The notes below the pieces were generated by a model. It worked only from the letters and a program-made list of their open reading frames with translations. It was not told the origin of the DNA and ran no database searches. From a virus, in IMG/VR virus record IMGVR_UViG_3300025789_000904, positions 1 through 32,411 of that record: a DNA stretch of 32,411 nt; one strand, 5' to 3'. The translations under genes were made by a program, and so were the position numbers. Of the stretch, positions 4,121-24,125 are shown piece by piece; position 1 is the stretch's first letter; each line of letters opens with the position of its first letter.

Positions 4121-4408
4121 ATGTACTTGGGCATGGAATATCAACAAACTCAACACATACGTACAAGTAAAAAGGGTAATTACCACAGTTACTTTAGAAA
4201 AAAACGTATTGTGATCTTTCGTTGCGACTGTTGCCAGGGAATTTTTAAACGTGACAAGGGCGACGTAGACCCTAAGCGTTTAGATAATAATTATTACCAT
4301 GTATGCGGTAATTGTGATGCTAAGAAGTTTGCCCAGAGTAAAGGCGTAGAAGCTCGGCGAGTTTGGGATATGCCAGTTAGTAGTCTTAAGACTCTAGACC
4401 AATTTTAG
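4121..4408 (+). CDS. Small Zn-finger-like protein, function unknown
   Basis: Up to 95 aa, basic, with two Cys pairs (C35-x-x-C38 and C62-x-x-C65) that form a four-cysteine zinc-binding pattern. Lys/Arg-rich segments around it (TSKKGNYHSYFRKKRIV; YHVCGNCDAKKFAQSKG) suggest nucleic-acid binding. It resembles small conserved proteins of aquatic T4-like phages, but I cannot name a function. Neither possible start (ATG 4121 or ATG 4133) has a good ribosome site. It is one of few plus-strand genes here and its last 23 bp overlap the end of the convergent SOD-SGNH gene. An HNH-type nuclease remnant is possible, but no HNH histidines are seen. Confidence 0.7.
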   Translation: MYLGMEYQQTQHIRTSKKGNYHSYFRKKRIVIFRCDCCQGIFKRDKGDVDPKRLDNNYYHVCGNCDAKKFAQSKGVEARRVWDMPVSSLKTLDQF

Positions 4409-5402
4409 ATTTAATTGCGCTAGCTACAGCACCGTAACTTGTAGGATGTAGTTTGTCTGCGGTACTTGATATTTGTGCTAAATCAACAGAATCATCTCCG
4501 ACAATTGCTGTAGAAACATCCTTAGCGGCGCTTCTATTAAAAGGTAGTATCCAAATGTATCGTTTAGCTTTTAGAGCAGATTTAATATGTGCTATATTCG
4601 AAATAGTAGCTTGAGGATTATTATTTTTGCCGCCATTAGCTAGCGGATAATCGTTTGTTCCAGCACTTACTATTGCTAAATCTGCACCTTGTAAGTCTGG
4701 ATTAGACATAACAGCAGACAAAATTGCTTTAGTACTGCGCCCGACTACAGCATCGGTATGTGCAGTAGGAAACAACTTACTAGTACCGAGCGCTATACTA
4801 TCACCTACTACAACTATTTTAGAAAACTTACTCTCTGAAATAACCTTTGTAAACCCAATTCTAGAACTAATAACATTCCAGTTGATAATTTTCCATTGAT
4901 TAGCTAGATAGCCTTTCTTATCTGCTTGATAATCCAATACGAATGCGTGTTCCCACCAGTCAATTAACAAGACAATATCCATCTTAATTTCGTGGTTCTT
5001 GATTGTTTTGATTTCGCCTCTATGCGACAAATAGACCCATCCACTACCTTGCACTGCCATAGCTTCTTTTTGAAACTTATCTTTAAAGTTATCAAAAGTT
5101 TTAAAGTGCTTGGTAATAAATTCGCCAGCAGATCCATCTGGCTTGTTAGAACCTGCGGGTGCTTGAAATTGTGTAAAATAAATGTCGTGTAAAAAGGCAC
5201 CTGCTTCATTAAAATCAGCATCGCCTTCGCCTTTATTAAATCTGTCCACATAGGCTTTGTACAATTTACCGTAATGATAATCTATAGTATCTTCGCTAAG
5301 ACTAGGCTCTAAATCATCGCGAGCATAGGGCAACTTTGTTTGGACTAAAGTTTTAGGAGTCTTACCTTCGTTAAATGTAATGTGGCGTATAAAGTTGTAC
5401 AT
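4386..5402 (-). CDS. Fe/Mn superoxide dismutase fused to an SGNH/GDSL hydrolase
   Basis: Two recognisable enzymes in one 338-aa frame. Residues ~20-185 are an Fe/Mn-type superoxide dismutase: LPYARDDLEP, then the four metal ligands His43 (DYHYGK), His72 (AFLHDIYF), Asp148 and His152 (IDWWEHAFVLDY), and the typical ending QWKIINWNVI. The position normally held by the outer-sphere Gln (TIKNHEI) is His137, a variant I recall from some archaeal-type SODs. Residues ~190-338 are an SGNH hydrolase: VVVGDSIA (nucleophile Ser202), SAGTNDY (Asn250) and DKLHP (Asp316, His319). There is no signal peptide and no stop or frame change between the halves. ATG 5429 would add nine residues; neither start has a clear ribosome site. 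Role unknown: superoxide removal, or a virion or tail esterase on an SOD-like scaffold. Confidence 0.88.
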   Translation of the reverse strand: MYNFIRHITFNEGKTPKTLVQTKLPYARDDLEPSLSEDTIDYHYGKLYKAYVDRFNKGEGDADFNEAGAFLHDIYFTQFQAPAGSNKPDGSAGEFITKHFKTFDNFKDKFQKEAMAVQGSGWVYLSHRGEIKTIKNHEIKMDIVLLIDWWEHAFVLDYQADKKGYLANQWKIINWNVISSRIGFTKVISESKFSKIVVVGDSIALGTSKLFPTAHTDAVVGRSTKAILSAVMSNPDLQGADLAIVSAGTNDYPLANGGKNNNPQATISNIAHIKSALKAKRYIWILPFNRSAAKDVSTAIVGDDSVDLAQISSTADKLHPTSYGAVASAIKSKIGLES

Positions 5403-5417
5403 AGTGTATTTATTCGG

Positions 5418-5425
5418 TATAAATA
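5418..5425 (+). promoter_or_regulatory. Late promoter box TATAAATA
   Basis: Exact T4 late consensus on the plus strand, 19 nt before ATG 5445, with GGAGG at 5430-5434 as ribosome site. It lies in the divergent gap next to the SOD-SGNH start. Confidence 0.7.
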
Positions 5426-5444
5426 TCATGGAGGATAAAACACT

Positions 5445-5702
5445 ATGATTAAATTTATCAAAAGTTTCTTTAAAAAGAAGGAAGACCCAGTTGCACCTTA
5501 CAAGGTAGAAACACCAGTTAGCCCTGTAGCCGACGATGTTACTCGTGCAATGTTAGAGTCTATTCCAGCGCCAGTTCCTGCTAAAAAGCCCGCGGCTAAA
5601 AAAGCTAAAACGACTAAGCAAATAATTGAGGAAAATCCTAATTACTTGCCAGAAACCAAAGCTAAAAAGCCACGTGCTCCTAAAAAGCCTAAAGCAGAGT
5701 AA
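5445..5702 (+). CDS. Small Lys/Pro/Ala-rich late protein
   Basis: 85 aa with an amphipathic start (MIKFIKSFFKKKEDP), an acidic middle and a strongly basic C-terminal half made of repeated K-x-P and A-K-K units (KKPAAKKAKTTK; KAKKPRAPKKPKAE). It has no known catalytic motif. GGAGG 10 nt upstream and an exact late promoter box indicate strong late expression, so a DNA-condensing or head-associated protein is a reasonable guess, not shown. Its last 14 bp overlap the end of the convergent UV endonuclease gene. Confidence 0.85.
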   Translation: MIKFIKSFFKKKEDPVAPYKVETPVSPVADDVTRAMLESIPAPVPAKKPAAKKAKTTKQIIEENPNYLPETKAKKPRAPKKPKAE

Positions 5703-6714
5703 GAGCCTTAGCCTGCTCGTATAGAGCGAAACTAGCTAAGTTTTTGCCTTTGCTTTCGCACATGATATCGTGCGAGTTTAAAAAGCTCAAAGCCCATTCA
5801 TTCGTAGATGTATTCCAGTAAAAGTCCGAATGTGCTCTGAGCTTTTGCTTTTTGTATCCGTCTAAAAGTAGTTGGGCATGAACAGGTGCGGTAGTCCGGT
5901 CATGCTCCACAAGATAATCTTCACGACTAACTGAATAGTGACAAGTAGGCCGAACACCACGCCAACTATCAACAACACGTTTAACACGGTCATCGTTGGC
6001 GTCAATATACTCTCCTTCCCGAATCCAATGATGATGTATATCAAGGACAATAGGAACAAGGTCGCTAATGCTAAGGCAATCATTTAACCCCCACGAGTTT
6101 TCTTCGTTTTCGATAGTAATACAGTTTCTTGCTTCTGGCGATAGTCGTTGGTATGCACGGCGGATACCTTCTGGACCTTGTTTACCGGAGATGTGGACGT
6201 TGATCTTGAAATCCTGAAAGGACTTGCCGTAACCCATCCAACGTGCCATATCCGCATGATATTCGAATTCCGCTATCGACCGTTCGACAATGCCTGGGTT
6301 ATCACTTGCCAAAACTGTAAATTGACCAGGATGCATAGACAAGCGAATACTGCTATCGAGAGCAATGTCGCCCACTCTCTTAAAGTGGGTTTCGGCGTAT
6401 GATACAACGTCAGGTTTACGCCAATAATCAGCAAAGTCATCGTGAGTATAAGCAGGGAGAATGTCACTGCTAATCCTAAACATCCGAAGAGAAGGGTCAA
6501 GGGTGCTAACACGCTCTACCAACTTTCTTGTTGCTTCGATATTGCCTACCATTAGGTCCCATAATCTTTGCTCCGCGACATCTCTTGATTGTTTATTTAA
6601 CCAAGAAATAGTAGTTGTGCCAGTGTTGTATTGTTTGGCATCGTCATCTTTGCCAATACCGTCGACCTGATGAGGATGGTCAATCCATTTACATGCGAAG
6701 CCTATACGTTTCAT
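5689..6714 (-). CDS. uvsE: UV damage endonuclease (UvdE/UvsE family)
   Basis: 341 aa, full length for the family, which nicks DNA 5' of UV photoproducts and some other lesions using a TIM-barrel metal centre. Family signatures in order: RIGFACKWI at the start, NTGTTTISWLNKQ, MFRISSDILP, LSMHPGQFTVLAS, EFEYHADMARWMG, INVHISGKQG, CITIENEE and VLDIHHHWI, giving the His/Glu/Asp metal ligands. I choose ATG 6714 because it forms TAATG with the end of the gene before it and has AAGG 8 nt upstream; a longer frame to 6792 only reads backward through that gene. It would give a phage in sunlit water a one-enzyme start to repair independent of UvrABC. Confidence 0.93.
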   Translation of the reverse strand: MKRIGFACKWIDHPHQVDGIGKDDDAKQYNTGTTTISWLNKQSRDVAEQRLWDLMVGNIEATRKLVERVSTLDPSLRMFRISSDILPAYTHDDFADYWRKPDVVSYAETHFKRVGDIALDSSIRLSMHPGQFTVLASDNPGIVERSIAEFEYHADMARWMGYGKSFQDFKINVHISGKQGPEGIRRAYQRLSPEARNCITIENEENSWGLNDCLSISDLVPIVLDIHHHWIREGEYIDANDDRVKRVVDSWRGVRPTCHYSVSREDYLVEHDRTTAPVHAQLLLDGYKKQKLRAHSDFYWNTSTNEWALSFLNSHDIMCESKGKNLASFALYEQAKALTLL

Positions 6715-6899
6715 TACCAATGCCTTATGACGCCTAAGATTATAAAAGTGTTTGTAAGTACATATGATAACACAATTAAGGTACGAATGCAAGCAATTCG
6801 GTCCGATTCTTTATCCGTATTGCCTGTTTTCTCACCTAATGCTTTGGCCCAAAGGCGCCAAAAATACTTAACCTTCGTACGTAGCTGAATTACCAGCAT
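6714..6899 (-). CDS. Small single-span membrane protein
   Basis: 61 aa from ATG 6899. The basic/aromatic N-terminal part (KVKYFWRLWAKALGEKTGN) is followed by DKESDRIA and one hydrophobic span at residues ~38-58 (TLIVLSYVLTNTFIILGVIRH). The gene overlaps the end of the QueD-like gene by 32 nt and ends in TAATG with the UV endonuclease start, so it is sandwiched in an operon. A TTG at 6914 would add five residues. I recall similar small proteins with a closing IRHW in aquatic T4-like phages; function unknown. Confidence 0.65.
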   Translation of the reverse strand: MLVIQLRTKVKYFWRLWAKALGEKTGNTDKESDRIACIRTLIVLSYVLTNTFIILGVIRHW

Positions 6900-7395
6900 G
6901 TTCAAATACTTCAACTGATTTAATTCTTACTGTTGGGTTTAAGGGATAACGATGGTTGCCATTTACTAGCAAGTCTGCCATTTTGTCATAGCACATTTTG
7001 GCAAACAGTTCGCAACCTACTCCAGGTACAATACGCAGGTCGCACACCCCTGATCTACGATAGGGTTCTGTTTGTACACGATCTGGATTGCCATCGTGTT
7101 CTGGATTTGAACTCCAGCCTGCCATAGCTTTGAATCGATCTAACAATGGATCGTCTTCGGCAATTACTGTAGTATGATCAAACATATAGTCTGCCCAGGC
7201 TTTGAATTCTTTAAGTCCGCCAAAGTCCATACCCCAGTTCTTTTCGTCTAGTGTATCGCATTCAAAGATTAGTTTGATACCAATCGAGTATCCGTGTAGT
7301 AACGAGCAGTGGCTATGTGTGGCACGCCATTGTCTAAAACAGCATGAAAGTCCGCGGTCGTTACCGTATGTTTTTGTTGAATAAAATTTTGCCAT
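6868..7395 (-). CDS. queD: 6-carboxytetrahydropterin synthase-like protein (QueD/PTPS family)
   Basis: 175 aa of the QueD/6-pyruvoyl-tetrahydropterin synthase family, which turns dihydroneopterin triphosphate into a tetrahydropterin, the second step toward preQ0. Visible features: HSHCSLLHGYSIGIKLIFE (zinc site with catalytic Cys30), NWGMDFGGLK, FDHTTVI (Asp73-His74) and the closing VEVFEHAGNSATY. The usual H-G-H is H-G-Y here, which I recall as typical of the branch found in alphaproteobacteria and aquatic phages. AGGAG lies 6 nt before ATG 7395. No queC, queE, queF or folE is visible in this window, so whether it feeds tRNA queuosine, DNA deazaguanine modification or another pterin cannot be told. 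Confidence 0.9.
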   Translation of the reverse strand: MAKFYSTKTYGNDRGLSCCFRQWRATHSHCSLLHGYSIGIKLIFECDTLDEKNWGMDFGGLKEFKAWADYMFDHTTVIAEDDPLLDRFKAMAGWSSNPEHDGNPDRVQTEPYRRSGVCDLRIVPGVGCELFAKMCYDKMADLLVNGNHRYPLNPTVRIKSVEVFEHAGNSATYEG

Positions 7396-7468
7396 TGTCT
7401 TCTCCTAAAAGTAGCAATGACATGCAGAGTTTATATTGCGGGATGAATGCCTAAGTCCGCATAGTATA

Positions 7469-7496
7469 ATTATACAGACTTATTTATAGAAGTCAA
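7469..7496 (-). promoter_or_regulatory. Overlapping early (sigma-70-like) and late promoter
   Basis: On the minus strand TTGACT (7491-7496), a 16-bp spacer, then TATAAT (7469-7474). The spacer itself contains an exact late box TATAAATA (7481-7488). The promoter touches the stop codon of the fibre-like gene and drives the QueD-like/membrane/UV-endonuclease operon after a leader of about 65 nt. Confidence 0.8.
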
Positions 7497-7498
7497 CT

Positions 7499-8959
7499 TT
7501 ACTGAGCGGCAATTTGTCCAAAGCCCGACCATTGTCCAGGTGTGCCTGTTGCTACACATACCCATCCGACATAGTCGTCGGCTTTTGGTTCAGCGTTCCA
7601 GCAGATGTCCCCAACTACGTAACTTCCGGTAGTAGGAGCGGCAATGTGTGTGGTAAAGCGTTTGCCACCAATACTAACATCTCCATTTACGCTAAAGTTC
7701 AAACTAGGATCTGGGTTGTTAATACCAACACTTAGTTTGCCAAATACTTTTACTGGCTTAGACTGTAGTGTATTATCTCCAATGCTGATTTGATTATGGT
7801 CACCGTAAATAACTTTTGCAGTAGCTTGTGTTAAAGATACAGTATTATTAAAATTCAATCCTGCATTTGTTATTTGTAAACTGTTAACACCATCGTTGAA
7901 TACGATGTCTGTAGCTGTAACTAGACCATTTACTTGTAGTTTACCCAGTAAAGTAGTATCACCTGTAACTGATAAACTATGTAGTGCGCCCACACTGGTT
8001 AGACTAGATTGTACTACAGTTGGACCTAAAATAGATTCATTTAAAACAAACTGCCCATTGGCATAGTAGCCTTTGCCTAAACCAATGTCAAAACTTTCAC
8101 TAGAGTACAAACGATCAGGACCGCTAGACATAACCAATTGACGTGTAGCACCTGTGCCAGTCCATTGTATACCCAATCCGTAGATACTTGTGTCAGCTGT
8201 TGCTGTAAATTGTAGCGGATGTGTACGGTCAATTCTATTGTCAGTTACAATATTAGTAGCAGTTAACGTACCATAGACGTTAAGAACACCGCCGCCTCTA
8301 TACTGATCGCCAACATTAACTTCGCCGCTTTGTTTGATTGTAACACGTGATAAGCCATCTGTAATGATACTAAAATCGTGACTGCTATCAGTTCCAACGT
8401 AAGCACCTGTAATATTAGGACTGCCTAATACAATGCTTATATTGTTTTCTAAAATATTAACTGCGGCACTAGGCTCGTCTGTGCCAATGCCTAATCGATT
8501 AAATGTACTGCTAAAGAAAGCAAAATTACCTAGTCTAGTATCGCCGCTTACATTAAGATTAACCAGTGTACCCAATGCACGTAGTTTGCTGTTAACAATA
8601 GTGTCGCCCAAACCACTGCTAGTAATTACTGGAACATTGTCTATCTTGTAAGTTTGATCTGGGCCTGTATCAAAACCACTACTTGCCCATAAACGTCCGC
8701 CTGTTCTATACTGTAATTGTGTTGCACCATTAGGCCAACTCCAGCTAAAACCTTGTCCGTTTAATTCTTCTTCACTAGCGGCTTGCCAATTGTTTAGATT
8801 AGAACCGTTTTCTGTAAGTATATTTCTTACATTAATAGTATCGGCTGTAATTGAACCGTTAATAGTATAGTCGCCATTGTGCGTAAATGAGCCTGTAGTA
8901 TTGGCTAATTCAGTATTAATTAACTGTACAATGCCGTCTTGAATTGATAGTTGGGTCAT
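7499..8959 (-). CDS. Fibre-like virion protein
   Basis: 486 aa, rich in Gly/Ser/Thr/Asn with repeating beta-strand segments typical of trimeric phage fibres: LGIGTDEPSAAVNI and VGINNPDPSLNFSVNGDVSI are two copies of a motif V-G-I-x-x-x-x-P, and VNLNVSGDTRLG and HSLSVTGDTTLLGKLQVNG are two more related units. The C-terminal end (YVVGDICWNAEPKADDYVGW then a G-x-W-x-G-F-G ending) resembles terminal domains of phage fibre and appendage proteins. A late-type box lies at 8981-8988, fitting a virion role. No enzymatic motif is visible. Whether it binds the host receptor or decorates the head cannot be decided. Confidence 0.82.
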   Translation of the reverse strand: MTQLSIQDGIVQLINTELANTTGSFTHNGDYTINGSITADTINVRNILTENGSNLNNWQAASEEELNGQGFSWSWPNGATQLQYRTGGRLWASSGFDTGPDQTYKIDNVPVITSSGLGDTIVNSKLRALGTLVNLNVSGDTRLGNFAFFSSTFNRLGIGTDEPSAAVNILENNISIVLGSPNITGAYVGTDSSHDFSIITDGLSRVTIKQSGEVNVGDQYRGGGVLNVYGTLTATNIVTDNRIDRTHPLQFTATADTSIYGLGIQWTGTGATRQLVMSSGPDRLYSSESFDIGLGKGYYANGQFVLNESILGPTVVQSSLTSVGALHSLSVTGDTTLLGKLQVNGLVTATDIVFNDGVNSLQITNAGLNFNNTVSLTQATAKVIYGDHNQISIGDNTLQSKPVKVFGKLSVGINNPDPSLNFSVNGDVSIGGKRFTTHIAAPTTGSYVVGDICWNAEPKADDYVGWVCVATGTPGQWSGFGQIAAQ

Positions 8960-10226: not shown

Positions 10227-10255
10227 ATTATAGCGCCGTCTAGCTATTCTGTCAA
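10227..10255 (-). promoter_or_regulatory. Perfect-consensus sigma-70 promoter
   Basis: On the minus strand TTGACA (10250-10255), exactly 17 bp, TATAAT (10227-10232). The expected start is about 25 nt before the TTG codon at 10195. The -35 box overlaps the last codons of the upstream radical SAM gene. Confidence 0.9.
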
Positions 10256-12352
10256 GTTCTGAATACCCTTCAAATACTTGGCTTTTTCGGCATCTCTTTT
10301 GAGCATAGCTTCTAAAAGAACTTTTGGATCGTTTGGATCTTGTTGTTTTTCTGCAACAATAGGTATTATATTTTTTCTACGACGATTATGTACAGTTTCT
10401 CCAGTTTGGTTGTCTGGGCTAATCCAATCCGATATATTACCTGCCATGTTTATTGTTTCACTAAATGATTTATCATATTGCGAAGTTTCCCAAGCGTACA
10501 CACTTGATTTAGTTTCATCCAATGCACGGTGGTGGTCAAACTTATGTATCAATTTCAAATCGTAAGATCCGTCAGATTTTATTGATATACTAAAATCGGC
10601 AGTGTAATCATTTGTTAACCAACTACCAAAAGTAGCAACATCTGAAGATGGATCAAATCTTACAAAAATATCCCCCGAACCAAAATACAAATATATTGCG
10701 TAAGCTAATGAGAGATATTCATTAGCAAGGCCAAGATTGTTTGTAAATTGTTTTAGATTTACAAAATTATCGTAAGTACAATATTCTTTACTTTGTCCTA
10801 GATTTGACACACTGTAAAAACTATTAATATTTGAATACTTTTGACTATTAACAATAGTTGACCCGGCATGCGTTTCTAAAATATCCAACCAAACATGCAA
10901 TAATTTTATTCTTATAAATCGATGCAGAATAGTATTTTTAAATCCATCAGTCCACCAAGTACTTAAAAAAGTTTTATCACTTAATCTATCTTCACCGACC
11001 ATCCCGTATACTTTCCAATCTGTATACATATGACTAGCAGTAGCAGGCCCTGCTCCAAAACCAGGACTAATAGCTCCTATATGAGTTCTAGCATTTGATA
11101 TTAGTTGCAAACTGTGTAAAAAATCTATAGGTTCTTCTGTAGGAAACCCAACCATCCAGTTAACATGATTAAACAGTCCTACTTCTGCACCATCTCTTAG
11201 ATTGTTTTCAATTTCCCATATTTCAATTTTTTTACGCATATCAAGTAAGACTTTTTGACTACCTGATTCTACACCGTAACTTAAACATGTACAACCACTA
11301 TCTCTTATTTTTTCAATAAAAGCCTTATCCATGCGACCGTCACATCTTACATAACTGTTCCATCTAATATCAATTTCTTTTTCTAATACTAAATCGATCA
11401 ATCTTCTAAAATTTTTAAGATTTCCGTTAGCTAAACTATCTACAAACCAAAAACGTTTAACTCCAAATTTTTTAATTTGATGTTCTATTTCTTCTATAAC
11501 ACGTTCAGGTGTATTACTTCTAAATTTCCAAAAATATGTTTCAGCACAAAAACTACATTCTGCTATGCATCCTCTAGATGTTTCTATACTAACACCATCT
11601 GGATGTTGATAGTTAGATAAATTATAATCTGAATAATCTGGGAAAGGCAATTCTTCTAATTTTAATCGACTGTCAGTTGTGCCTATTCGTTGTCTTAGCG
11701 GAAATGTTTCTGGTAAGTTATCTAGTAGATCTATCAGGGTACCTTCGGTTTCACCTACGAAGAAATAATTAAAAGGCAAATCAAATATAGTGGATCCAGT
11801 TAATGTTTCGGGCCCACCGGCTATGAAACATGTTTCAGGCAGTTTTTCTTTTAATTCATTAAACAAGTATTCTACAGCAAATAAATTAGTATTATAAACA
11901 CTAAATCCAATTACTCGGGGGCTGTCTTCAACTAATTGATCAATAACTCGATCAAACAAGGGTTTTAAATGTGGCAATACTTTTTCAAAGAAATTTTGTC
12001 TATTAGTCCAGAGAAAATATTTTTCACCTCTCCAATAGTCTTCTCCTACTTCTTGTTTAATAACATGATACGATTCTATGTTTAAATCATATACTTTGGT
12101 ACTGTAATTGTAATGCCTGATCAACCCCACAAGTTTTGCTAGATTATAGGGAGGAAATAATATACCCCAGGCTGGCGCCATAATCATTGCTACTCGGAAT
12201 TTATCTGTTTCGTCCCAAGGTTTATCAAATATGTCAAACTTTGTATTTTTTGTTTCAAAATTTCCTAGATGACTATTAGCATGATTAATGTTATCTTTTT
12301 CTAGGATATGTTCGAGTATAACCTGATCTCTGTCTTTATTAAGATTAGTCAT
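10244..12352 (-). CDS. B12-binding-domain-type radical SAM protein
   Basis: 702 aa. Residues ~50-215 look like a cobalamin-binding-type Rossmann domain (VAMIMAPAWGILFPPYNLAK; VIGFSVYNTN; CFIAGGPETL; YFFVGETEGTL). The canonical DxHxxG cobalamin motif is not obvious, so B12 itself may not be bound. Residues ~253-470 are the radical SAM barrel: SIETSRGCIAECSFCAETYF with C262-x3-C266-x2-C269 for the 4Fe-4S cluster, then RFWFVDSLANG and YGVESGSQKVL. The last ~230 residues match nothing I recognise. The family includes methyltransferases, cyclases and thioether-forming enzymes; the substrate is unknown. It is the third of three consecutive radical SAM genes and overlaps the second by 4 nt. Confidence 0.88.
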   Translation of the reverse strand: MTNLNKDRDQVILEHILEKDNINHANSHLGNFETKNTKFDIFDKPWDETDKFRVAMIMAPAWGILFPPYNLAKLVGLIRHYNYSTKVYDLNIESYHVIKQEVGEDYWRGEKYFLWTNRQNFFEKVLPHLKPLFDRVIDQLVEDSPRVIGFSVYNTNLFAVEYLFNELKEKLPETCFIAGGPETLTGSTIFDLPFNYFFVGETEGTLIDLLDNLPETFPLRQRIGTTDSRLKLEELPFPDYSDYNLSNYQHPDGVSIETSRGCIAECSFCAETYFWKFRSNTPERVIEEIEHQIKKFGVKRFWFVDSLANGNLKNFRRLIDLVLEKEIDIRWNSYVRCDGRMDKAFIEKIRDSGCTCLSYGVESGSQKVLLDMRKKIEIWEIENNLRDGAEVGLFNHVNWMVGFPTEEPIDFLHSLQLISNARTHIGAISPGFGAGPATASHMYTDWKVYGMVGEDRLSDKTFLSTWWTDGFKNTILHRFIRIKLLHVWLDILETHAGSTIVNSQKYSNINSFYSVSNLGQSKEYCTYDNFVNLKQFTNNLGLANEYLSLAYAIYLYFGSGDIFVRFDPSSDVATFGSWLTNDYTADFSISIKSDGSYDLKLIHKFDHHRALDETKSSVYAWETSQYDKSFSETINMAGNISDWISPDNQTGETVHNRRRKNIIPIVAEKQQDPNDPKVLLEAMLKRDAEKAKYLKGIQNLTE

Positions 12353-13464
12353 GGTACAAGAGCAGCCATATTACCTAATTTGACTTGCTCATTTTTAAAA
12401 ATTGGATCTTTAAGAATTTCTATTAATTGAGATCTCTCAGGATGGTTGTCCTGCCAAATAGCCATAGTTTTAAATTGTTCATCGCCTATATGCCACCACT
12501 GTGCAATTAAGTTAGTCCAAATTACCGGTTTAGATTTAAAACCCATTTGCCATTCTACAAAGGGTTTAAGTTCCATATAGTTGTCTTTTTGAACTATTAG
12601 ATTACTTTGCCAACCATTTATATTTGGAAAACATCCATCTATAATCATTTGATCTAACAGGTCTAAATTCTTTTGTAGACGTTTAAAGTTTCCGTTCTTA
12701 CGAACAATTTTGTAAGTTTCTTCTGTTGCGGCATCTACGCTTATATTAACATAGGCAATATGCGGCCACAAAGGTTTTATAGCGTTCCAATTTTGCTCTG
12801 TCATCATAACTCCATTAGTTTGGAGATTAATGAATAAATTAGGAGGTACAGGCTTGCTGGCTAACTCTTCTAGGTAACTCCAGTACAAAGGACTAGCAAA
12901 TGGGTCACCACTACCTGTAATACTCAGTACAACTTTTGGATACTGTGATATTAGCAGGTCGACAAGTTGTTTTACACGCTCATGTATACGTACGGCTTGT
13001 TGCGCTTTATAATCCGTAAGATCTGTAGGATCCCATACAATAAGGCCGTGCCTGCAACTTGGACATTGCAAATTACAACTAGGGTCATAACTAAAATATA
13101 CATCTACCGATCTATGGGCTAGATAGTTATCTAAGTTTTCTATCGGAACAATATCCCAGTAGTATTCTCTTTTTTGATTATGTAATAAAGAATTTAGTTG
13201 CGGGCATTGATCGTTACATTCGGTAAATTTACCCTGACGCATATCGTCTTGTATACGGCGTCTGTCCATATTATTAAGGACTTCCTCCGCACTATCAGTG
13301 AGTAAATCTCCAACCCAAGTGGGTAACCAAGTTTGGCAACATGCACTAATCTTTCCGCTCATGTGTATTTCAATGTGCCTAAAAGGTGCGGCACACGCAT
13401 GTCGGGATAATACTTCTTCAGGATTACCGTAAGCAGATTCAGGTTTAATAAGATATTTGGCCAT
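12349..13464 (-). CDS. Radical SAM protein with N-terminal SPASM/twitch-like Cys domain (second of three)
   Basis: 371 aa. An N-terminal Cys region (C24, then SGKISACC at C42-C43, VGDLL, and C83/C87) looks like a half SPASM (twitch) domain for an auxiliary Fe-S cluster. The radical SAM core follows with C130-N-L-Q-C134-P-S-C137, SITGSGDPFASP in place of the usual G-G-E-P, LQTNGVMM and VNISVDAATEET. SPASM-type enzymes usually modify peptides or proteins, and here the auxiliary domain is at the front, as in the next gene, so the two look paralogous. It overlaps both neighbours (4 nt and 1 nt), which indicates translational coupling. Confidence 0.88.
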   Translation of the reverse strand: MAKYLIKPESAYGNPEEVLSRHACAAPFRHIEIHMSGKISACCQTWLPTWVGDLLTDSAEEVLNNMDRRRIQDDMRQGKFTECNDQCPQLNSLLHNQKREYYWDIVPIENLDNYLAHRSVDVYFSYDPSCNLQCPSCRHGLIVWDPTDLTDYKAQQAVRIHERVKQLVDLLISQYPKVVLSITGSGDPFASPLYWSYLEELASKPVPPNLFINLQTNGVMMTEQNWNAIKPLWPHIAYVNISVDAATEETYKIVRKNGNFKRLQKNLDLLDQMIIDGCFPNINGWQSNLIVQKDNYMELKPFVEWQMGFKSKPVIWTNLIAQWWHIGDEQFKTMAIWQDNHPERSQLIEILKDPIFKNEQVKLGNMAALVP

Positions 13465-14681
13465 TAACTTAGAATTTCCTTTAGTTCGGGAATAGTATTT
13501 AATGTATCTTCTCCACGCATTTTATCTACAGTAGCAGTAAAGTTTTTAAATTCTTCTAACCATTTTATATTTTGTGGTTTTTCCAAATGCCAGAATAAAT
13601 GTAAAAACAAATGTCTGATATCCGTATTATATTTCATACGATAGTCAACAATATAATTTTCTAGTCGCTGTCTAATTTCTTTTCTATAACTATCTGGTAA
13701 TATGCTTACGTGGAATCTAGGACTATACTCTACTACGTTAATTGAAAAATTAAGCATACGCTCGTAATCTTTTTTAATAACACCTATTTCAATTAGACGA
13801 TCAAGTATTTCTGGAATTCTGAATACATTCATGGCACTGACAGTAATACTAGGACGTATGTGTATCTTAAGTTCATTTACTGCCCTTAAGTTAGCTTCTA
13901 CATTAGCCCAATTAGTTCCGCTACGTATTAGTTCTGCTCGTTCATCAATTTCATCTATGCTGGGCCATAACCAGATTCGTTGCCCCCATTTGCGCCAATA
14001 ATCTAATACATTTTTATCTTTATAAGTTAGTTTGCTTAAATTACTATTATAAGTTAAGATAACATTGTATCTCTGTGCTTGGTCTAGCATTTCTAAAATT
14101 TGCCAGTGTTCGTCCATAAGTAATGGCTCACCGCCTGCAAAGTAAATTTTTTCTACAGTATCGATGTATTTTTTAAGAAAGTCTACGTTAGTAGCCTCAC
14201 CAACATTTTCAATTTCAATTACTTTTCTATCATTAGTAATCCAACCTAATCGTTCTGCATCTGGCAACCATGAACTACTAAACTCGGGACCACAAGTTCG
14301 ACATTTGTAATTACAAAGATTACTAAATCTAAAATCCCAATATTTTAAATCTACTTGGTCAACATGGCCATCGGGTGCAGTAATAATAGGAATATCTGCT
14401 AATTTTTTATTAAAATATTTGTTATGATTTAATCGTGTACTGCCACCACCGCTACGTTCTGATTCAAAGCATTTAGAACAAATCTTAGGTTCAATACCAT
14501 TAATCATGTCCTTGCGGAGATTTTTCATGTAATCTCCATTCCAAATTTCTTCGATAGTCTGTGTAGTTAAATCGCCTGCATATTCTTTATAATCACTAGT
14601 CATGCAACAGTGATATACTTTACCGCGAGGAATAATGTTTAGGTGTACCCAAGGAATAGCACATATAGTATTTGAAGTCAT
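13464..14681 (-). CDS. Twitch-domain radical SAM protein (first of three)
   Basis: 405 aa. N-terminal auxiliary Cys domain (C7 in CAIPWVHLNIIPRGKVYHCC, C25-C26, AGDLTTQTIEEIWNG, C68-x-x-C71), then the radical SAM core with RFSNLCNYKCRTCGPEFSSS (C123, C127, C130), IYFAGGEPLLMDEHW (the G-G-E-P SAM motif) and LTYNSNLSKL. Proteins with the R-F-S-N-x-C-N-x-K-C signature are known in aquatic T4-like phages, where the substrate is unknown. It starts 10 nt after the preceding gene ends, with only a weak ribosome site, which fits coupling. No obvious short precursor peptide lies beside it. Confidence 0.88.
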   Translation of the reverse strand: MTSNTICAIPWVHLNIIPRGKVYHCCMTSDYKEYAGDLTTQTIEEIWNGDYMKNLRKDMINGIEPKICSKCFESERSGGGSTRLNHNKYFNKKLADIPIITAPDGHVDQVDLKYWDFRFSNLCNYKCRTCGPEFSSSWLPDAERLGWITNDRKVIEIENVGEATNVDFLKKYIDTVEKIYFAGGEPLLMDEHWQILEMLDQAQRYNVILTYNSNLSKLTYKDKNVLDYWRKWGQRIWLWPSIDEIDERAELIRSGTNWANVEANLRAVNELKIHIRPSITVSAMNVFRIPEILDRLIEIGVIKKDYERMLNFSINVVEYSPRFHVSILPDSYRKEIRQRLENYIVDYRMKYNTDIRHLFLHLFWHLEKPQNIKWLEEFKNFTATVDKMRGEDTLNTIPELKEILS

Positions 14682-22627: not shown

Positions 22628-23488
22628 TTAAATCTCCAATAAAATGTTAGGGTTCCAGCCAGTGTCCTCACTGTAACCATCGTTTTCGTAACCACGTGGG
22701 TTGCATACAACACGAGTCTCACCAATCTTGTAATCAAACGGATGATGAGTATGCCCATGTGTCCACAAGACAATCTGTGGGTGATCCAAAATGAACTCAC
22801 TCAAGTCACTGTGATATCCACCGTTCATCAATGTGTCGCTGCCATACATTGGGTGGCAACTTTGAAAGCTAGGACTATGATGTCCAACTACAACACACTT
22901 CTTGTCCTTGTTCTCACTGAGTACATGACGGAAGTATTGCAGAGTCTTATCATGTCTATGAGCAACGTCTAACGCACTCATAGGAGCATAGCTTCTGTAA
23001 TCATTACGAATGATACGGAAGTCGTTCATCATACTTTCAATGGCATGCATGGTCAATGGGTCACGTTTGTTCATGTTAGTCCAAAGTGTTCCGCCCATAA
23101 ACACTACATCATCGATGACCTTAGTGTCTTGTTCCAGCATATACACGTTGGGAAACTTAGCGCATTCGTCACGCATATAATCAATGCCAGCATAAAACTT
23201 GCCATTGTAGAATTCATGATTGCCCATGATATAAACTACATGGGGAAACTGAAAACTGCAACGCTTCAAAAAGTCACGGAACCGCTGAGCACGTTCTTGC
23301 CTACGACCCAAACCAGTACCATTAGCAATAGCCCGTTGATCAGCTGTATTGCTAGGCTCAGGATGATCGTGGAGATCCTGGGCGATCATAATATCGCCAC
23401 CAAGGATCAGTACATCATAGTTCTGATCATTTTGAATGTTGACGTCACTGAACTCTAAATGGAGATCACTGACCAGTTTGATTCTCAT
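22628..23488 (-). CDS. Calcineurin-like metallophosphoesterase
   Basis: 286 aa from ATG 23488. The full dinuclear metal-site set is visible: D8-x-H10 in LVSDLHLEF, Asp32 in LGGDI, Asn90-His91-Glu92 in MGNHEFYNG, His203 in VGHHSP and H244-x-H246 in HGHTHHP. Such enzymes cut phosphomonoesters, phosphodiesters or nucleotides; in phages they act as phosphatases, nucleases or signal breakers, and this sequence does not tell which. A start at 23536 would add 16 residues unlike the family, so the internal ATG before R-I-K-L-V-S-D is chosen. It overlaps the previous gene by 23 nt. Confidence 0.9.
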   Translation of the reverse strand: MRIKLVSDLHLEFSDVNIQNDQNYDVLILGGDIMIAQDLHDHPEPSNTADQRAIANGTGLGRRQERAQRFRDFLKRCSFQFPHVVYIMGNHEFYNGKFYAGIDYMRDECAKFPNVYMLEQDTKVIDDVVFMGGTLWTNMNKRDPLTMHAIESMMNDFRIIRNDYRSYAPMSALDVAHRHDKTLQYFRHVLSENKDKKCVVVGHHSPSFQSCHPMYGSDTLMNGGYHSDLSEFILDHPQIVLWTHGHTHHPFDYKIGETRVVCNPRGYENDGYSEDTGWNPNILLEI

Positions 23489-24125
23489 TTTCGTTTTCCA
23501 TGTTCTCCAAAGACTGTTCCCACATTCTTTGGTCAAAAGATTTATCTACTGGGAATTTTGGTAACCCGTTTTGCTCTGCCCATTGTTTGGCATCTTCTTT
23601 ATTATACTCGCCTTTTTCAACTTTGTCAATAAATGATTTGAGCATTTTATTCATCCAATCATTGAAAGTCATGTTTTCGGCATGAGCACATTTGAAAGCA
23701 AACATCAACAAGTCATCTGGCAAGTCCAAAGGAATGCTTATGTCTGTGGAATAGTCTTCACCTGCCTTAATAGCAAGACACTTAGAAATAAAGTCGTCGT
23801 CGACTTCTAAATCAACATACTCAACATCGTCCCATGCTTCGTTTAAGCTGATTCCACGAGCTTCAGCTTCTTTACGATGCTTGGCCTGCTTATTCTCAGC
23901 AATCATACGATAAGCACGTTTGTTGGTATAGTCACATACTTCTACTTCATATACCTTTTGTGTCTTAGTACTGAATACAATATTAAAACTCCAGCCGCCT
24001 TTATCGTGAAGACCATTCCAACTAGACAGTTGGTAGGCATTAGGTCCATAGCATGACCAGGTATAATCACCACCTTCGGTGATTCGATAGTCTACCAACT
24101 CCATCCATTCTTTCATTGTAATCAT
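23466..24125 (-). CDS. Early phage protein of unknown function
   Basis: 219 aa, acidic, no membrane span. The N-terminal half is aromatic-rich and likely beta (YTWSCYGPNAYQLSSWNG; WSFNIVFSTKTQKVYEVEVC). Residues ~130-175 resemble a small helical or ribbon-helix segment (ISIPLDLPDDLLMFAFKCAH; FNDWMNKMLKSFIDKV), the kind found in phage DNA-binding or accessory proteins. It overlaps both neighbours. The start ATG 24125 forms ATGA with the previous stop; M4 (24116) is an alternative. Confidence 0.8.
   Translation of the reverse strand: MITMKEWMELVDYRITEGGDYTWSCYGPNAYQLSSWNGLHDKGGWSFNIVFSTKTQKVYEVEVCDYTNKRAYRMIAENKQAKHRKEAEARGISLNEAWDDVEYVDLEVDDDFISKCLAIKAGEDYSTDISIPLDLPDDLLMFAFKCAHAENMTFNDWMNKMLKSFIDKVEKGEYNKEDAKQWAEQNGLPKFPVDKSFDQRMWEQSLENMENENENQTGQ

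Follow-up and report, generated by a model that had tools for sequence, protein, structure and literature searches.

A viral DNA stretch of 32,411 nucleotides (the window; IMG/VR record IMGVR_UViG_3300025789_000904) carries on its minus strand a gene for a protein in which a full Fe/Mn superoxide dismutase (SOD) and a full SGNH-hydrolase domain share one frame. That two enzyme folds are joined in one protein is close to certain. The protein is best read, with a probability of roughly 0.6, as an internal head protein that a T4-like phage would express late, package, trim and inject, with the SGNH domain as added cargo. This reading is built on direct observations, namely the fusion, its conservation, the leader pattern, a late-promoter-like element, the gain and loss of the SGNH module and the relatives of the protein; from these we infer packaging, cleavage, injection and both activities. 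The strongest clue is a leader resembling a head-targeting signal, which is absent from the original prediction. That prediction had placed two enzyme domains, possibly virion-borne, in one phage protein, and this part is supported; its alternative, an SOD fold reused as a scaffold, is not favored, as the four metal ligands are kept.

Gene and Domain Layout

The uninterrupted frame over positions 4386 to 5402, first described without a strand, is borne out: the gene lies on the minus strand with an exact boundary at 5402, and the plus strand of the same interval contains many stops. The open minus-strand frame extends from 4386 to 5429 (347 amino acids). The start conserved among 80 related loci is Met10 of this frame, at position 5402, from which MYNFI[RK] follows, and the protein therefore comprises 338 residues. 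No stop or frameshift, which the original prediction had named as evidence against a fusion, is present between residues ~180 and 195. The open-access full texts searched yielded neither a paper describing an SOD-SGNH fusion nor any use of the phrase "phage-encoded superoxide dismutase," and PHROGs yielded no family for the fusion protein. The features of the locus are listed in Table 1; here and below, a slash in a sequence marks the candidate cleavage point.

Table 1. Features of the SOD-SGNH locus in the window
Feature	Position	Strand	Remark
SOD-SGNH fusion gene, conserved start codon to stop (338 aa plus stop)	4386..5402	-	In-frame upstream ATG at 5429
T4-late-promoter-like ATAAATA, last base 4 nt before the start codon, without Shine-Dalgarno	5407..5413	-	
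N-terminal leader MYNFIRHITFNE/G, residues 1-12, resembling a T4 capsid targeting sequence	5367..5402	-	
Fe/Mn superoxide dismutase domain, residues 13-184; ligands H43, H72, D148, H152; outer-sphere His137	4851..5366	-	
SOD-SGNH linker FTKVISE/SKFS, invariant Glu (residue 190) after Val/Ile-x; candidate second prohead-protease site	4821..4853	-	
SGNH hydrolase domain, residues 195-338: GDS, GTND, DKLH	4389..4820	-	
11-nt repeat, upstream copy TCTAGAATTGG, end of SOD domain (insertion/deletion junction)	4855..4865	-	
11-nt repeat, downstream copy TCTAAAATTGG, end of SGNH domain	4399..4409	-	
Divergent late-promoter-like ATAAATA, 26 nt before the start of gene 5445-5702 (+)	5419..5425	+	Same spacing class as at other genes

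Superoxide Dismutase Domain

Pfam recognizes Sod_Fe_N (3.7e-11, 43.8 bits; cut-off, 27) and Sod_Fe_C (6.3e-23, 81.2 bits; cut-off, 20.9) in the fusion. The four metal ligands named in the original prediction, three histidines and one aspartate (numbered from 5402), are invariant in the alignment of relatives, as are Tyr34 (here Tyr51) and the active-site Trp122. In a medium-confidence model of the whole protein, the SOD half matches solved SODs by Foldseek (9e-13), with TM scores, taken by target, of 0.73 to 0.77 for the best dimeric SODs. The first AlphaFold2 model of the whole fusion, with a pLDDT of 63, is too poor for judging the mutual packing of both domains.

The phage SOD has the fold, the four metal ligands and the C-terminal water-coordinating His in common with the SodFM3/SodFM4-like Fe/Mn superoxide dismutases. 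It differs from them by an extra leader, the replaced His30/His31/Tyr166 gateway and the optional C-terminal SGNH domain. The outer-sphere His137 corresponds to the C-terminal water-coordinating His found in most SodFM3/4 enzymes (PMC10172142). This being a common state, the earlier suggestion that His137 indicates an unusual metal preference is weak, and the idea of a catalytic outlier on account of this residue is rejected. The rarer changes, unmentioned in the original prediction, lie in the gateway, where Leu47 replaces His30, Tyr48 replaces His31 and Val155 replaces Tyr166 (numbering mapped by hand); the third position holds Val, Ala, Gln or Met across both phage SOD clades. The encoded protein is likely to show SOD activity at an uncertain rate, and this activity may be altered, His30 and Tyr166 being replaced. 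Superoxide removal is quite probably the role of the domain.

SGNH Domain and Its Relatives

The SGNH domain alone remains below the Pfam cut-off for Lipase_GDSL_2 (0.0038, 18.2 bits versus 32.9 required), and a stand-alone phage SGNH homologue passes it with 39.0 bits. AlphaFold2 modeling with an alignment of 28 relatives gives a pLDDT of 93.5 and a pTM of 0.89, with GDSL acylhydrolases, the C-domain of the peptidoglycan O-acetyltransferase OatA and TesA as the best PDB matches. Both folds are thus supported by structure prediction. The catalytic set described earlier (GDS, GTND and DxxH, here DKLH) is present: blocks I (GDS), II (G), III (GxND) and V (DxxH) show Ser17, Gly36, Asn65 and His134 as invariant or nearly so, with the Asp of block V changed to Glu in L012 and L134. 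Fold and catalytic blocks are shared with SGNH/GDSL hydrolases such as the OatA C-domain, TesA and Bacteroides acylhydrolases, to which the domain is only 11 to 22% identical.

The closest relatives, with 54 to 62% identity, are domains of a protein of ~1,760 residues encoded by other phages (L134, L135 and L151), in which dCMP deaminase and amidoligase models also find matches, besides weak nucleotidyltransferase and metallopeptidase-like ones. With its nucleotidyltransferase-like, SGNH, metallopeptidase-like, amidoligase and dCMP deaminase domains, this protein (L134:3134-8416) looks like an effector polyprotein. The next-closest relatives are domains inside baseplate hub/tail lysozyme proteins, into which they are inserted in L152 (1069-3804), L155, L157 and L160. 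In a midpoint-rooted tree, the SOD-fused and multidomain SGNH domains are joined (95/97) and fall into one clade with the baseplate domains (100/100), separate from the stand-alone phage SGNH proteins of ~130 amino acids. The members of this clade, up to 62% identical to the fusion domain, reside in virion-type host proteins with different partner domains, whereas the SGNH domain of the fusion is a short C-terminal cargo on the SOD. Owing to the tail-lysozyme relatives and the similarity to OatA, an ester of the envelope is the first candidate substrate. No stand-alone gene of exactly this SGNH subfamily was found in viral_contigs. A single genome_contigs scan with the SGNH alignment, made for a cellular SOD-SGNH fusion, returned two 40%-identical SGNH fragments and no SOD.

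Distribution and Exchange of the SGNH Module

A viral_contigs scan returned 380 relatives, 80 of which were kept. The full architecture, SOD and SGNH in one protein, is present on 12 other viral contigs with 72 to 100% identity, and a scan with the SGNH half alone returns the same 12. About 380 phage contigs carry this SOD, so that ~97% of the SOD loci are found without the SGNH part. The remaining SOD genes examined stop 1 to 7 residues past the SOD domain, except for five (L017 to L021) ending in the scar TKVISESKFSKIGR; in L018, a different gene of ~200 amino acids (6089-6730) follows where the SGNH part was lost. The common gene order is UvdE, a small divergent gene, SOD, a 95-amino-acid gene, an A-type Fe-S carrier and a tail protein. 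Elsewhere in the window, positions 10244 to 14681 (minus strand) encode three consecutive proteins that appear radical-SAM-like by sequence.

Both domains are under purifying selection, with dN/dS values of 0.04 to 0.16 for the SOD and 0.27 or less for the SGNH part. Synonymous divergence is lower in the SGNH than in the SOD domain of the same pairs (0.01 and 0.29, respectively, between the window and L006), and the fusions sit on at least four SOD branches, which together point to recombination as the way in which the SGNH module has spread. Its insertion is clean and flanked by an 11-nt repeat, as can be seen from L014, a near-identical phage without the SGNH part whose junction falls inside this repeat.

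N-Terminal Leader and Linker

The phage SODs carry an N-terminal extension absent from the matched bacterial SODs. Among the 59 leader/tail combinations of a second scan, 58 contain [ILVF]-x-E-[AGSN]. The 32 distinct leaders all have Glu at P1, mostly Leu or Ile at P3 (29/32, otherwise Val or Phe) and Gly at P1' (29/32), with nine different residues at P2; examples are MYNFIKTIAE/G, MYNFIKQLQE/G, MYNFIKRVIQE/G, MAYNFIQKFIVE/G and MYNFIRHITLNE/G. The distance from Met to Glu is 10, 11 or 12 residues, and because the [ILVF]-x-E end is kept at all three lengths, the motif survives indels. The leader of the window itself has Phe at P3 (TFNE/G), where its orthologues have Leu.

In phage T4, leaders of ~10 residues direct proteins to the prohead core and are then removed by gp21 (PMC5694885, PMC10229621, PMC9958956), and a 10-residue leader is enough for packaging foreign proteins (PMC10229621, PMC5694885). 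In the T4 record, the translated IPII and IPIII sequences open with MKTYQEFIAE/A. Like these proteins (and IPI and Alt), the phage SODs have a leader of ~10 amino acids that ends in (I/L)-x-E before a small residue. The T4 internal head proteins are nonessential cargo, either enzymes or effectors (Alt, for instance, has ADP-ribosyltransferase activity), targeted to the core and cut by gp21. The phage proteins differ in that the cargo is an SOD with or without SGNH, in that the leader is different apart from its pattern and in that their packaging and cleavage are predicted from this pattern. Packaging into the head by way of the leader is on this basis probable.

Peptidase S77 of the gp21 type is present in G001 (6e-27) and G012 (1e-26), two of the SOD-bearing long relatives searched. 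In G001, it adjoins gp22- and gp23-like genes (named from position and a look at the sequence), and G012 also encodes an SOD starting with MYNFIKTIAEG. The window record is a 32-kb fragment outside the protease and head genes, where absence of a cognate S77 is uninformative. A conserved N-terminal [ILV]-x-E-type motif in all members is found in 5 of 56 orthologue families, whereas two control windows placed internally give 0 of 56. A looser motif is weakly enriched proteome-wide in G001 (p = 0.008), not significantly in G002 and G003, and weakly among the MS-detected proteins of Pseudomonas phage PA5oct (9/93 versus 3/87); this loose regular expression is weak and is kept out of the main evidence.

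The SOD of PA5oct (EST35_0261) is 41% identical, starts with MNDSIKKYISIAE/A and has the same Leu and Tyr at the gateway, with Met at the third position. The SODs of PA5oct and its kin (Wroclawvirus) thus resemble that of the window in a capsid targeting sequence (CTS)-like N terminus and the same kind of gateway changes; they differ in having no SGNH domain and in their neighborhood (ClpS, sHsp and FtsH). The PA5oct record tags its SOD "ESI-MS/MS." The proteins tagged in this way are mostly called structural and also include soluble enzymes, for example ribonucleotide reductase and thymidylate synthase, possibly as carry-over, and the tag is support for packaging rather than proof.

A 219-amino-acid protein of the window (23466-24125, minus strand) starts with MITMKEWMELVDYRITE/GGDY, the I-T-E-G end being kept in G002 and G003, and is another candidate head cargo. 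Some phages have extra genes between the SOD and the 95-amino-acid gene (L041:6590-6877 and 6913-7725; G002 44229-45364), which start with the CTS-like MKTIRDYVRLIENIEAEG and MKIWELLDEG and have no match in Pfam. Gene clusters in G001 (169472-177983), G002 (77875-83422) and G003 (84988-94578) encode products with M[KR][IL]xELLEG-like starts (MRINELLEG, MNLRELFES and MLLRELFL), among them DUF6267 and cytidylyltransferase-like proteins. The SOD of Vibrio phage 2.275 (MG592671; L125:3968-4537) is without a leader and is extended at its C terminus by KMLDE/SVNIRHLINFISK, perhaps the equivalent of a leader at that end.

A comparison of eight fusion proteins shows the linker as VISE/S, IISE/S, LVSE/G, IVKE/D, IVNE/D or LVSE/A; the Glu and a Lys after it never change, unlike their neighbors. 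The multidomain SGNH relatives show VDE/G or VDE/A before the SGNH domain and ITE/N, ITE/S or IME/S after it. These [V/I]-x-E motifs are candidate prohead-protease sites, and a possible site in the linker would part the SOD and SGNH halves, which leaves the bifunctional enzyme of the original prediction a hypothesis. Release of the SGNH domain by the prohead protease is a tentative proposal, with odds a little short of even.

Late-Promoter-Like Elements

In almost every relative, ATAAATA or a one-base variant (G/C/T-TAAATA) closely precedes the start of the SOD gene. In the tabulated genomes, the SOD genes have such an element 11 to 12 nt before the ATG without a Shine-Dalgarno sequence, and the structural genes have it mostly at 24 to 37 nt with a Shine-Dalgarno sequence. 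If the T4 late promoter is the right analogy, SOD transcription would begin at or beside the ATG, and the late mRNA of the gene would be leaderless or nearly so. Two distance classes are also seen before start codons in the window (28214 and 5402) and in G001, G002, G003, G006 and G008, namely 24 to 37 nt with a Shine-Dalgarno sequence and 11 to 15 nt without, the latter in 14 cases versus about 0.6 expected (own estimate); this shorter class may give leaderless late mRNAs.

Proposed Role and Alternatives

The fusion gene would be expressed late, its product being an internal head protein whose 12-residue leader directs it into the core of the prohead before a gp21-type prohead protease removes this leader. 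The SOD would be packaged with the DNA and enter the host together with it, where it could remove superoxide early in infection; alternatively, it might protect the DNA in the particle. The SGNH esterase, taken from virion proteins, would have been added at the C terminus behind a further [V/I]-x-E site in this subgroup. It would travel as cargo, perhaps to be released by that protease, and its substrate would be an envelope or cytoplasmic ester.

The usual interpretation of viral SODs is that of auxiliary metabolic enzymes (PMC12542629). The protein could accordingly stay in the infected cell and limit late oxidative stress, with the leader otherwise used and the SGNH part as a second cytoplasmic enzyme. 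The neighboring genes for an A-type Fe-S carrier, UvdE and a PTPS-family enzyme fit such a role, and late expression alone does not prove packaging. It is nevertheless unlikely, as it leaves unexplained why a short leader should be conserved at its ends alone, retaining [ILV]-x-E-G despite indels, and why the PA5oct SOD has a CTS-like N terminus and an MS tag. As a component of the tail or outer capsid, the protein could deacylate a surface glycan at adsorption through its SGNH domain, with the SOD domain working outside the cell, and this would suit the wider SGNH clade in baseplate hub/tail lysozyme proteins. The protein has no fiber-, OB- or needle-type attachment domain, however, its leader resembles a head-targeting signal and most orthologues are SOD alone, which makes this improbable.

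The replacements in both phage SOD clades change the substrate gateway and could suggest that the SOD fold is a noncatalytic structural or carrier domain, but the invariant ligands, Tyr34 (Tyr51) and Trp122 and the low dN/dS of the SOD render this very improbable. Although about 97% of the phage SOD loci are without the SGNH part, the probability of an assembly chimera or single-genome accident is negligible in view of the further contigs, the occurrence on four SOD branches, the purifying selection that acts on either domain and the conserved flanking genes; the same open fusion on 12 other contigs and dN/dS far below 1 exclude chance, frameshift or chimera.

To our knowledge, few enzymes are cargo of T4-type heads. 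For the internal head protein proposed here, the wider generalization, in which T4-like and some jumbo phages package and inject SOD, the SOD of this subgroup carries a second enzyme released by the protease and cargo is modular behind [I/V]-x-E sites, has an even chance of holding. If SOD is packaged, this would suggest that superoxide has to be neutralized, or DNA or Fe/Mn chemistry shielded, as soon as a phage begins to infect. With the leader pattern, head cargo of uncultured phages could be predicted from sequence by a simple rule. The fused gene would be a natural case of cargo added to an existing passenger. Some freshwater relatives of T4 may thus deliver two enzymes into the host along with their DNA.
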